Shown here: positions 2,824 through 57,046 of the stretch, one piece after another | How the letters are laid out: each line of letters opens with the position of its first letter | Position numbering within the stretch: position 1 is the stretch's first letter | NCBI RefSeq assembly: GCF_002967075.1 | Contig: NZ_PUGE01000005.1 | Location: 1-64,000, forward strand | Direction of reading: 5' to 3' | Length of the DNA: 64,000 nt | DNA from: Corynebacterium sp. J010B-136 | Lineage (GTDB): Bacteria > Actinomycetota > Actinomycetes > Mycobacteriales > Mycobacteriaceae | Made by a program: the position numbers and the translations under genes | Notes under the pieces: generated by a model | Told to the model about the DNA's origin: nothing | What the model saw: only the letters and a program-made list of their open reading frames with translations | Database searches by the model: none

Positions 2824-3249
2824 ATGCCTGATAAGAAGTTCTCTGTTGATGATGCAACTCGTCTGGTCGCTGTGGGCGAAAAAGCCGAGACGGGCGCGCG
2901 GCGCGCGGTGCGGTGGTTCCGTGTGTTCGTGGTCATGCAGGCGGTGTACGCGCTAGCGTTCACCGTGTCGATCGATGTGGCCGGAGTGGACTATTGGAAG
3001 GCGTTCGCGCCGTTCCTGCTGGTCACGCTGTGCATCTGGATGATCGCGCTCCAGCACCGGCAGTCCGCGCCGCGGCACGGCCTGCGGAACGTGGGCATCG
3101 CGGTGGCGACGTGGTTCGCGCTGTATACGCTGATGCTCGACCCGGCGCTTCAGCTGTTCGGCGCGTCTTCGCCGTGGTGGTGGGTGCTTGCCGGCATGGT
3201 TTCGGTCACACCGATCCTGGCCTGCGTGTTCGCGAGCTCGCGGCGATGA
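2824..3249 (+). CDS. Small four-helix membrane protein
   Basis: A 141-residue protein with a short charged N-terminus and four hydrophobic segments (roughly residues 30-50, 58-75, 88-108 and 115-135), ending in a short basic tail. I do not recognise a named family; proteins like this commonly precede MarR/ArsR-like regulators in actinobacteria. Its stop overlaps the start of the next gene in an ATGA at 3246-3249, which implies translational coupling to that regulator. It may be a membrane partner or regulator target. No catalytic motif is visible. Confidence 0.8.
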   Translation: MPDKKFSVDDATRLVAVGEKAETGARRAVRWFRVFVVMQAVYALAFTVSIDVAGVDYWKAFAPFLLVTLCIWMIALQHRQSAPRHGLRNVGIAVATWFALYTLMLDPALQLFGASSPWWWVLAGMVSVTPILACVFASSRR

Positions 3250-48911: not shown

Positions 48912-49012
48912 CACGCAGAATGCTCGAAAAGGATATAAATTCTTCCCCCAGCATGCTCTGACGCAGAAAGTTATTGCCGGCACGCATCACCTGGGTTAGT
49001 GTGGTGCGTTAA

Positions 49013-49089
49013 GACACGGGGTGCCGTAGCAAGCGGCTGAGATTACACCCGTCGAACCTGATCTAGTTAGTACTGGCGAAGGGATTGTC
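49013..49089 (+). promoter_or_regulatory. TPP riboswitch (THI element) upstream of thiM
   Basis: The conserved THI-box strings are in order: ACACGGGGTGCC, GGCTGAGATTACACCC, GAACCTGATCTAGTTAGTAC, and GCGAAGGGA. GACA (49013-49016) and TGTC (49086-49089) close the P1 stem. It lies 99 nt before thiM and should turn off the rightward thiamine operon when thiamine pyrophosphate is plentiful. Confidence 0.95.
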
Positions 49090-49187
49090 CGGATGAAACT
49101 GGCTGTGCGCGGATACCTGAGGTGTCCTGTTGTGCGCTGCGGTGATGCTGCACATTCTTCTTCGTCAGAGGAAGAAAGCGAAAGGCC

Positions 49188-55379: not shown

Positions 55380-55477
55380 CGCTTGTCTCCGTTTCATCAC
55401 TCATACCGAGTTCGAAGAAGCGAAGCGTGCCGCAGTAGATACAGGTATCCCTGCATATACTGCCTGCGTCGTTTACC

Positions 55478-55549
55478 GACATCCCTCCGCGAGTCCGAAC
55501 TCGATCAGGTTCTCGGGTTTAATCTCAGCCCTTTCGGGCACCCCGTGTC
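55478..55549 (-). promoter_or_regulatory. TPP riboswitch (THI element) upstream of thiD
   Basis: On the minus strand: GACACGGGGTGCCC, GGGCTGAGATTAAACCC, GAACCTGATCGAGTTCGG and GCGGAGGGATGTC occur in the canonical order; GACA (55549 side) and TGTC (55478 side) close P1. About 100 nt separate it from thiD. It differs in sequence from the element at 49013, so it is not a recent copy. Confidence 0.95.
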
Positions 55550-55591
55550 TGGCGCCCACGCTAGCACAAAATGTCCTGGCAAGGAACGACT

Positions 55592-56743
55592 TTAAGAAAA
55601 GATGCTGAGCGCGTAGAGGATGAAGACGAATAGGTGTGCTCCACCGTGAATCGCGGTGACTTTCCGGGAGTTAAACGTCGCGATGCTCAAAGCCAGGCTG
55701 ATTCCTAGGAGCAGCAGGTTGGTGGGATTTTCGGCGAGGGTGACGGTCTGCCCAGTAAGCAGACCGATGATGAGCACGACCGGCAAAGTGAGGCCAACGC
55801 AGGAGACGAGCGCGCCGTGGGCGAGGTTAACCACGCGTTGTCCTTCGCCACCCCAGGCAGCGCGAACGGTGGTGATTGCTTCGGGCAAAAAGACAATCAT
55901 TGCGATGATGATGCCGGAAAGCGCGATGGGGGCGCCGAGGCGATTAAGGCCGTCATCGAGAAGCGATGCCATATCGTGAGAGAGCAACACGATCGGAATT
56001 ACCGTGATGAGCAAAACCATCGCGCGGGCGAAAATTTCTCCTTTGTGCTCGCGGAAAATCGCACCGATTCCAGGGCGAAGTTCAGTACCATGAACATCGC
56101 CGGAAGCAACGACGTCCTTGTCTGTTTCCGTGAAGTCGGCATGCTGGGCGCCGGTTTGGCGGTAGAGAAAGAATGCGTACAGGATGACCGTCAAGGTCAC
56201 GATGGTGATGGCCTGCGCGGTGTTATATGCGCCATCCGTGCCGATGACAGCCGGAATGGCGAAGGCGGTGGCGATGAGTACGACGAGCATCGACAAGTAT
56301 GCGGAAATTCCGGCGCGGTTGACCTGCAGGTTGTTATGCCGCATGCCGCCGACGATGAGCGCCAGGCCAATGACCAGATTGAGGACAATCATGACCGTGG
56401 CCATGACGGAATCACGCGCGATGGTGTGGTGATCGCCGGGTCCGAGCATGACCGCGGAGATTAGAATGACTTCAATGCCGACAATTGAAAGGGTCAGCAC
56501 CAGGGTGCCGTAGGGATCGCCAAGCCGGTGCGCGAGGTATTCAGCCTGGGTGACAACCCCGCCGGAACACGCGATGATAACGCCCACGATGAGCGCAAGA
56601 AGGGTGAAGACGAGGGGCATCGATAAGCTGCCGGTGAGAAAACCTGATGCCAGTGATAGTAGTGCGACCGCAACCCAGCCCAATACAATTCGGGCGATGA
56701 CAGATCCGGTGAGAACGCCGCGCAGGGCAGTAGAGGCTGACAT
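55592..56743 (-). CDS. chaA: ChaA-type cation:proton antiporter (CaCA superfamily)
   Basis: A 383-residue antiporter with eleven helices in two inverted halves. The alpha-repeats are visible as a GVVTQAEYLAHRLGDPYGTLVLTLSIVGIEVILISAVM segment (quoted in part: GIEVILISAVML) and IVFLPEAITTVRAAWGGEG, each with the conserved acidic residue. The family exchanges Ca2+, Na+ or K+ for H+. A guanidine-II-like two-hairpin leader lies just upstream, with AAAGGAG 10 nt before the ATG, so the true cargo or signal may be guanidinium; that is inference. Confidence 0.86.
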   Translation of the reverse strand: MSASTALRGVLTGSVIARIVLGWVAVALLSLASGFLTGSLSMPLVFTLLALIVGVIIACSGGVVTQAEYLAHRLGDPYGTLVLTLSIVGIEVILISAVMLGPGDHHTIARDSVMATVMIVLNLVIGLALIVGGMRHNNLQVNRAGISAYLSMLVVLIATAFAIPAVIGTDGAYNTAQAITIVTLTVILYAFFLYRQTGAQHADFTETDKDVVASGDVHGTELRPGIGAIFREHKGEIFARAMVLLITVIPIVLLSHDMASLLDDGLNRLGAPIALSGIIIAMIVFLPEAITTVRAAWGGEGQRVVNLAHGALVSCVGLTLPVVLIIGLLTGQTVTLAENPTNLLLLGISLALSIATFNSRKVTAIHGGAHLFVFILYALSIFS

Positions 56744-56763
56744 GGACGAAGACTCCTTTTATT

Positions 56764-56808
56764 GCAGGGTCGTCCCGGCTCTAGCTTTTACTGTGCAGGT
56801 CGTCCTGC
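56764..56808 (-). promoter_or_regulatory. Guanidine-II (mini-ykkC)-like riboswitch before chaA
   Basis: On the minus strand two hairpins follow one another. P1 is GCAGG-ACGA-CCTGC (56808-56795), a perfect 5-bp stem with an ACGA loop. P2 is GCCGGG-ACGA-CCCTGC (56779-56764), a 6-bp stem with one C-U mismatch and the same loop. A 15-nt linker separates them, and a Shine-Dalgarno AAAGGAG follows P2 closely. Two hairpins with ACGR loops closed by GG/CC, a short linker, and a nearby ribosome site are the definition of the guanidine-II class. Confidence 0.72.
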
Positions 56809-56866
56809 CAGCGTGTTCTAACCAGCAGCCTAGCACGCCTGGCAGATACGGCAAGCTCAGATTTCT

Positions 56867-57046
56867 TTAATTTGGACGATTGGTTTTATACACCAGATAA
56901 GACAGTAGAGCCCCGAAAAGGACGAATCCGATGGTGGCTACCGTCATGGAATGCTGCCATTCGAGATAGGCAGCGAATAATAGGCCGCCGATAAATACGG
57001 TTATGGCTTTCGTAATGGCACGCTGCTTAGTTCTTTTATCACGCAC
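56867..57046 (-). CDS. 59-aa membrane protein upstream of chaA
   Basis: A short gene that begins with GTG at 57046, preceded by AAGGAG (about 8 nt spacing), and ends with TAA at 56867. The product has a very basic start (RDKRTKQR), then two hydrophobic helices (AITVFIGGLLFAAYLEW and VATIGFVLFGALLSYLVY) with a short loop containing a His, and a basic tail. It lies between two paralogous hairpin leaders, in the same direction as chaA. It may be a small transporter subunit, an antiporter regulator or an unrelated membrane peptide; I recognise no family. Confidence 0.72.
   Translation of the reverse strand: MRDKRTKQRAITKAITVFIGGLLFAAYLEWQHSMTVATIGFVLFGALLSYLVYKTNRPN

Follow-up and report, generated by a model that had tools for sequence, protein, structure and literature searches.

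An antiporter gene of Corynebacterium sp. J010B-136 is preceded by a pair of hairpins of the guanidine-II (mini-ykkC) kind. This two-hairpin element is conserved, it covaries, and it is tightly linked to one clade of antiporters. The leader is probably a guanidine-II translational ON switch, with a guanidinium exporter of the CaCA superfamily as its target. We refer to the whole stretch of DNA analysed (64,000 nucleotides of contig NZ_PUGE01000005.1) as the window. The original prediction, made from the letters of the window, had read the hairpins as a riboswitch that points to guanidinium export by the antiporter or its small neighbour, or to control of cation exchange by guanidine. The hairpins before the antiporter gene are confirmed and the interpretation is supported.

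The hairpin pair and its conservation as RNA

On the minus strand, two GGACGACC hairpins, with an ACGA loop in both, have their cores at 56805–56798 (P1) and 56775–56768 (P2). They are followed by AAGGAG (56758–56753) and the ATG of the antiporter gene (56743–56741), so that the features of the region, in the order of transcription, are as follows.

56849–56854, minus strand: possible −35 element TTGCCG, 16 nt before the −10 element (by eye, in the window only)
56827–56832, minus strand: likely −10 element TAGGCT (from TANNNT placement in the leaders of relatives)
56765–56811, minus strand: putative guanidine-II riboswitch aptamer, two hairpins and linker (RF01068, 24.9 bits, E = 0.0046)
56795–56808, minus strand: hairpin P1, GCAGG-ACGA-CCUGC (sequence; covariation among 24 and 89 leaders)
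56764–56779, minus strand: hairpin P2, GGG-ACGA-CCC core, outer part with one C·U mismatch (sequence)
56753–56758, minus strand: Shine-Dalgarno-like AAGGAG (sequence)
56736–56749, minus strand: UCGUCC, AUG and the next codons, predicted partner of 56812–56800 (minimum free energy fold)
55592–56743, minus strand: CaCA/CAX-type antiporter of 383 amino acids, proposed guanidinium exporter (PF01699, PDB profile, AlphaFold2, Foldseek)

The window contains a single copy of the GGACGACC double motif, and 100 dinucleotide shuffles contain none. The Rfam model for guanidine-II, RF01068, of which the leader of E. coli gdx/sugE is a known example, matches the leader at 56811–56765 over its full length (model positions 1–48 of 48). 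The score of 24.9 bits, with an E value that refers to 401 bases searched, lies under the Rfam gathering score of 32, an automatic filter and not a defining trait of the class. The second-best match in the host genome has 12.8 bits. R1, a model that we built from 24 leaders of the genus, gives the leader 53.5 bits, but the window belongs to its training set. The likeness to guanidine-II RNAs extends to the GC-rich stem-loops with ACGR tetraloops (here both ACGA), to the position near the ribosome binding site (24 nt from the P2 core to the ATG) and to the linker, which at 15 nt between extended P1 (56808–56795) and extended P2 (56779–56764) agrees with the at least 13 nt reported for the great majority of the class (PMC5486947). 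ACGA loops, the 15-nt linker and the place before the Shine-Dalgarno sequence are thus as originally described. The leader differs from known guanidine-II RNAs in its target, a CaCA antiporter and not an SMR pump or a guanidine enzyme. A match to mir-2755 on the opposite strand (18.2 bits against a gathering score of 76) was taken as chance; a chance origin of the hairpin pair itself was rejected on account of the shuffles and of conservation.

Stem covariation in homologous leaders, which the original prediction had made a test of its case, is present in P1. Among 24 leaders of the genus, the covariation score of the whole structure is 0.297 compared with 0.132 after shuffling, with two-sided, compensatory changes at five of the six P1 pairs. 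We also compared 89 distinct leaders (from 111, leaving aside 15 that lack two strict cores and merging identical ones). P1 pairs 3, 4, 5 and 6 are standard in 87, 88, 66 and 58 of these, where 78.6, 75.2, 36.4 and 39.8 would be expected from column make-up. The P2 core is almost invariant in both sets and therefore yields little covariation signal. All loops in the set of 89 are ACGA or ACGG by construction of the search pattern; P1 has ACGA in 73 and P2 has ACGG in 59, and this commonest mix is also that of E. coli gdx (PMC13064478). On comparative grounds, the identity of the leader as a riboswitch is close to certain.

In 77 of 92 distinct leaders, a TANNNT motif is found 22–45 nt upstream of the P1 core, where 200 mononucleotide shuffles give a mean of 11.9 and a maximum of 27; this placement suggests that the transcript probably begins just ahead of P1. 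The P2 core lies 13–30 nt from the start codon in 83 of 89 leaders. Given this short distance, control of translation is the natural reading, and guanidine-II is described as a translational class (PMC9561414; PMC12186494). A Shine-Dalgarno-like motif, sought with a loose pattern, occurs in only 36 of the 89 distinct leaders; in many leaders the start codon itself may therefore have to be the point of control.

The leader in the window has a predicted minimum free energy of −31.0 kcal/mol (z = −2.52), matched by 1 of 200 shuffles, in a fold that pairs 56812–56800, the 5′ half and loop of P1, with 56749–56736. The resulting helix of 13 pairs includes two letters of the start codon, U and G. Forcing both hairpins to form raises the energy to −22.6 kcal/mol and lowers the mean pairing across the start zone from 0.79 to 0.38. 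The hairpin state is thus placed 8.4 kcal/mol above the predicted OFF state, a gap which suggests that co-transcriptional folding or error in the energy model must matter. This predicted OFF helix, in which the 5′ half of the aptamer's P1 covers the start codon, is unlike the anti-Shine-Dalgarno role proposed for the linker in E. coli (PMC9300104) and the P0 helix proposed in Pseudomonas aeruginosa (PMC9561414).

UCGUCC before the AUG is kept in the three closest relatives, UCGUCCC adjoins the GUG in Kocuria palustris and AUGCCGUCC is found in a group of Corynebacterium. Counting leaders without regard to lineage, 16 of 93 zones have YCGUCC close to the start, compared with 5.2 in shuffles. 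Duplex energies to the start zone single out the 5′ half of P2 (z = −3.7) and less so that of P1 (z = −1.4), with none for the other three segments. As a general rule, burial of the start codon was rejected: across 85 leaders, enforcing the hairpins lowers mean pairing only from 0.57 to 0.51, with a drop of more than 0.3 in only three. Support for a start-codon helix is confined to some lineages.

Distribution of the element and its gene

We searched 201 Corynebacterium genomes from RNA to gene and from gene to RNA. RF01068 gave 17 matches over the cut-off, and 16 of the 17 precede a gene homologous to that of the antiporter in the window, with scores of up to 44.6 bits in these leaders; L016, which also exceeds the cut-off, has no antiporter. 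Of the 30 RF01068 loci fetched, leaving aside the window's own, 23 precede a homologue (40–94% identity by BLAST); the seven without an antiporter (L016, L020, L023, L024, L029, L030 and L032) were omitted from alignment A2. In the opposite direction, the protein profile A1 finds the antiporter gene in 27 of the 201 genomes, and a hairpin pair stands before all 27. The RF01068 search supplied 24 of these pairs, and R1 together with inspection by eye supplied L162 (29.2 bits), L167 (21.6 bits, with a long linker) and L163 (16.9 bits, E = 0.19, with an extra A preceding the P2 loop). In L162 and L163 (genomes G186 and G090), P2 reads GGGAACGGCCC, with the extra A before an ACGG loop and a lower score.

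The leader is kept far beyond the genus. We applied R1 to the best 80 of 549 relatives, selected by protein alone, which include Leucobacter, Kocuria, Microbacterium, Nocardiopsis, Brevibacterium, Arthrobacter, Saccharopolyspora, Georgenia, Cellulomonas and a Streptomyces. The element is in place in 77 of the 80 at E ≤ 1 and in 75 at E ≤ 0.01; four of the 80 are Corynebacterium records (L036, L044, L045 and L101) that probably overlap with the training set of R1. The misses are L092 (cut by a contig end), L043 (an Arthrobacter with a decayed P1) and L097 (Pseudonocardia parietis), and the matches of L083 and L108 are weak. Twenty of the 80 loci were also searched with the Rfam model, and 12 of these 20 pass its own cut-off. 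Four further high-scoring antiporters from class- and phylum-wide searches (G577, G659, G657 and G457) all have the element, although G577 is probably L049 and G659 probably L082, hence not independent of the loci already counted. An intermediate protein (G563, 296 bits) is without it.

Searched across the phylum, RF01068 gives matches at E ≤ 0.001 in 11 of 296 genomes. One, in G457, precedes the antiporter; the other ten do not, several of them lie inside long reading frames, and L115, L116 and L123 show two cores each. In this GC-rich phylum, matches away from the antiporter look like chance.

Some loci carry additional hairpins. In Cellulomonas pakistanensis (L083, before position 3001), three GGACGACC hairpins in a row, not two, stand ahead of the antiporter. 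Second R1 matches about 420 nt upstream of the antiporter's own occur in Microbacterium oxydans BEL163 (L064, 2513–2558; 44.7 bits) and M. maritypicum MF109 (L110, 2515–2560; 43.3 bits). Both directly precede a small open reading frame (94 amino acids in L110) for which there was no NCBIfam match and no Pfam match over the cut-off; it is possibly a second guanidine-controlled gene.

The class- and phylum-wide searches for the protein return a second group of ChaA-type genes at about 160–212 bits, whose actinobacterial proteins are 27–29% (a few 35%) identical to the window protein. At 33 such distant loci, R1 found no match in place on the right strand, and none in the E. coli chaA region. In a plasmid collection the nearest homologues are alphaproteobacterial (11 records, 7 fetched). 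One, from Aminobacter niigataensis, is 41.5% identical to the window protein and has a guanidine-II match of 29.6 bits in its leader, under the cut-off (R1, 24.2 bits); the other six fetched homologues have no element in place.

The conserved unit is the leader and one gene. Among 80 antiporter loci we found no conserved operon partner, the largest cluster of neighbours spanning 9 loci, and only L148, L149 and L154, the three nearest relatives, have thiD next to the antiporter gene. The switch would therefore act on the antiporter gene alone. The small neighbour (56867–57046), to which the original prediction had allowed a role in export, has no family above the cut-off in Pfam or NCBIfam and no tblastn match at E ≤ 1 × 10−4 in 110 related loci. 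It is no conserved part of the system and was left out of the finding for these reasons.

The antiporter and its clade

The gene at 55592–56743 encodes a protein with two stretches of Pfam Na_Ca_ex (PF01699, 63.7 bits, cut-off 24.9), the only family that Pfam finds; there is no match to SMR (PF00893). The best NCBIfam match is ChaA (NF007895), but at 155.4 bits it is well below the equivalog cut-off of 505 bits, whereas E. coli ChaA itself scores 774.9. The target was first called a ChaA-type antiporter; the family assignment stands and membership of ChaA proper does not. ChaA-like CaCA antiporter, a relative rather than ChaA itself, seems the more exact name for a protein that shares with E. 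coli ChaA 29% identity, the CaCA family and both alpha-repeat glutamates. PDB profiles match Vcx1 (E = 2.8 × 10−11) and YfkE (E = 2.6 × 10−9). The AlphaFold2 model is confident (pLDDT 92.8, pTM 0.90), and its best structural matches in Foldseek include Vcx1 (E = 1.6 × 10−9), YfkE and CAX1, followed by NCX_Mj. The modelled structure shows a CAX fold, and together with the Na_Ca_ex repeats and the glutamates this places the protein in the CaCA superfamily. The CAX glutamates correspond to E91 and E288 (alignment, by eye), both invariant in 56 sequences.

In an unrooted tree, the high-scoring sequences (105 distinct, including the few members without a detected element) separate from the other 35 with a split support of 1.0. 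Four positions set this clade apart from both ChaA of E. coli and the distant actinobacterial proteins of ChaA type: it has Ser112 where they have Thr, His256 (Lys), Ala311 (Ser) and Ser314 (Ala). It thus differs from the ChaA types in its tree position, in these residues and in the presence of the element, which was not in place at any of the 33 distant loci searched. At position 256, YfkE has Glu and Vcx1 has Asp (alignment by eye), so the site differs between transport classes as His, Lys, Glu or Asp, and it may shape the substrate site. The Aminobacter protein has Ser112 and His256, as in the riboswitch-linked clade; its tree neighbour from Methylobacterium is without the element and has Thr and Lys at these sites. 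This single contrast is only suggestive of a link between the element and the two residues. L165, inside the clade, has the element yet Gln at 256.

Proposed function, rival readings and other guanidine systems

We propose the following course of events. Transcription would begin shortly upstream of P1. Without guanidine, the 5′ half and loop of P1 would pair with UCGUCC and AUG and bury the start codon, as energy folding of the window leader predicts. With guanidine, which the leader would bind by analogy with its conserved class, the two ACGA loops would dock around two guanidinium ions and hold the hairpins, allowing ribosomes to enter at the antiporter start. The antiporter would then swap guanidinium for protons through E91 and E288, the glutamates of the CAX alpha-repeats. 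This course of events, with guanidinium as the putative ion moved, draws on the full-length RF01068 match and the covariation in P1, on the element before all 27 genes of the genus and in 77 of the 80 relatives, on its absence at all 33 distant ChaA-type loci, on the residues specific to the clade, two of which Aminobacter shares along with the element, on the lack of a conserved neighbour gene, on guanidine-III RNAs beside SMR genes in the same genus, and on the occlusion of the start codon in the predicted fold. Several points count against this reading. The window copy is sub-threshold, 8.4 kcal/mol is much for two weak ligands, burial of the start codon is not general, SMR genes are no rarer where the antiporter is present, and the host has a SugE-like SMR gene. 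In addition, the corresponding motif predicted in C. glutamicum is described as 'not observed' in RNA-seq (PMC3890552).

The strongest competitor keeps the guanidine sensor and has the antiporter swap an inorganic cation (Ca2+, Na+ or K+) for H+, with guanidine signalling a need for cation or pH balance, for example after guanidinium uptake. The fold and the two glutamates are indeed those of Ca2+/H+ exchangers, among named models ChaA, an Na+/K+/H+ antiporter, comes closest, and SMR genes occur alongside the antiporter in 15 of 27 genomes. We nevertheless regard this as rather unlikely: the targets described for guanidine-II are efflux pumps and guanidine enzymes (PMC5486947; PMC12186494), the 33 distant loci that likely encode inorganic-cation carriers are without the element, and the clade departs from the distant ChaA-type proteins at conserved positions. 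A guanidine derivative (methylguanidine, aminoguanidine, agmatine or another) as the true ligand and substrate would fit the guanidine-II pocket, which has one open side and accommodates such compounds (PMC5486947), but it is improbable given that the loops and closing pairs match the validated class and show no hint of an altered pocket. That the hairpins are no riboswitch at all, but a protein site, the remains of a terminator or a motif arisen by chance, could draw on the sub-threshold window copy and on the chance-like RF01068 matches elsewhere in the GC-rich phylum; this is highly implausible, since the position, the loops and the covarying P1 persist in many genera of actinobacteria as well as in Aminobacter.

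Guanidinium export by SMR proteins of the Gdx (SugE) type, under guanidine-I, -II or -III control, is the established arrangement. The system described here resembles it in placing a guanidine switch in front of a cation/H+ antiporter gene. It differs in having a 383-residue CaCA exchanger of unrelated fold where Gdx is an SMR protein of about 105 residues; the antiporter may work like Gdx but is no member of that family. Within the genus, 38 of the 201 genomes contain guanidine-III RNAs, in 37 of them with a score above the cut-off; a gene for an SMR protein, the exporter type known for guanidinium, adjoins at least 35 of the 38 (compared by eye). A search for guanidine-I at E ≤ 0.001 gave matches in none of 101 genomes. 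Guanidine-III occurs in only 1 of the 27 genomes with the antiporter compared with 37 of the 174 others (P = 0.033, genomes being treated as unrelated). Replacement of SMR genes by the antiporter was considered and rejected, SMR genes being found in 15 of 27 genomes with it and 82 of 174 without it (P = 0.54). One exporter is not cleanly exchanged for the other, but guanidine switches do stand before cation/H+ antiporter genes in this genus. The SugE-like SMR gene of the host (L227, 528–842, minus strand) scores 96.1 bits against a cut-off of 126, and the surrounding 1,601 bases contain no Rfam match up to E = 1.

With slightly less confidence than we have in the reading of the window itself, we think it likely that the CaCA clade is a second, unrelated type of guanidinium/H+ exporter, present in many genera of actinobacteria, reaching at least one genus of alphaproteobacteria, and nearly always provided with its own guanidine-II element, and that the genus uses either guanidine-III with SMR or guanidine-II with the antiporter. 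The reported presence of Gdx in about 80% of Actinobacteria (PMC9574504) speaks against a need for a second exporter. Gdx also moves Cs+ (PMC13064478), so an overlap between guanidinium and alkali-cation antiport is not far-fetched. If the proposal is true, genes now named calcium:proton antiporter need re-annotation, a unit of switch and exporter has been built twice from different parts, and the clade offers a direct test of how a CaCA pocket takes an organic cation. It would also add a new fold for export to the guanidine-II transporters of the literature, which the available texts describe as being of SMR type or as efflux pumps without further specification.

The RNA belongs to a known kind, and its pairing with the CaCA protein family is undescribed as far as open-licence main texts go. 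Reported mini-ykkC targets comprise multidrug transporters and urea and agmatine genes (PMC3766115), and those of guanidine-II efflux pumps and modifying enzymes (PMC5486947). The available parts of PMC12186494, PMC7266159 and PMC7736828 name no CaCA target, and in the open-licence main texts we found no statement that ties a guanidine riboswitch to ChaA, CAX or CaCA. One earlier record bears on the site itself. Rfam's mini-ykkC prediction in C. glutamicum (33.52 bits), for which the available text names no gene, lies 3,164 nt after a TPP riboswitch (PMC3890552). In G186 and G090, a TPP riboswitch and the guanidine-II element are 3,172 and 3,173 nt apart and the latter precedes the antiporter; from this matching spacing, the 2013 prediction is very probably the same antiporter leader. 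The window itself contains two TPP riboswitches above the Rfam cut-off, at 49007–49102 (plus strand) and at 55465–55555 (minus strand), the second of them between the antiporter gene and a thiD-type gene.
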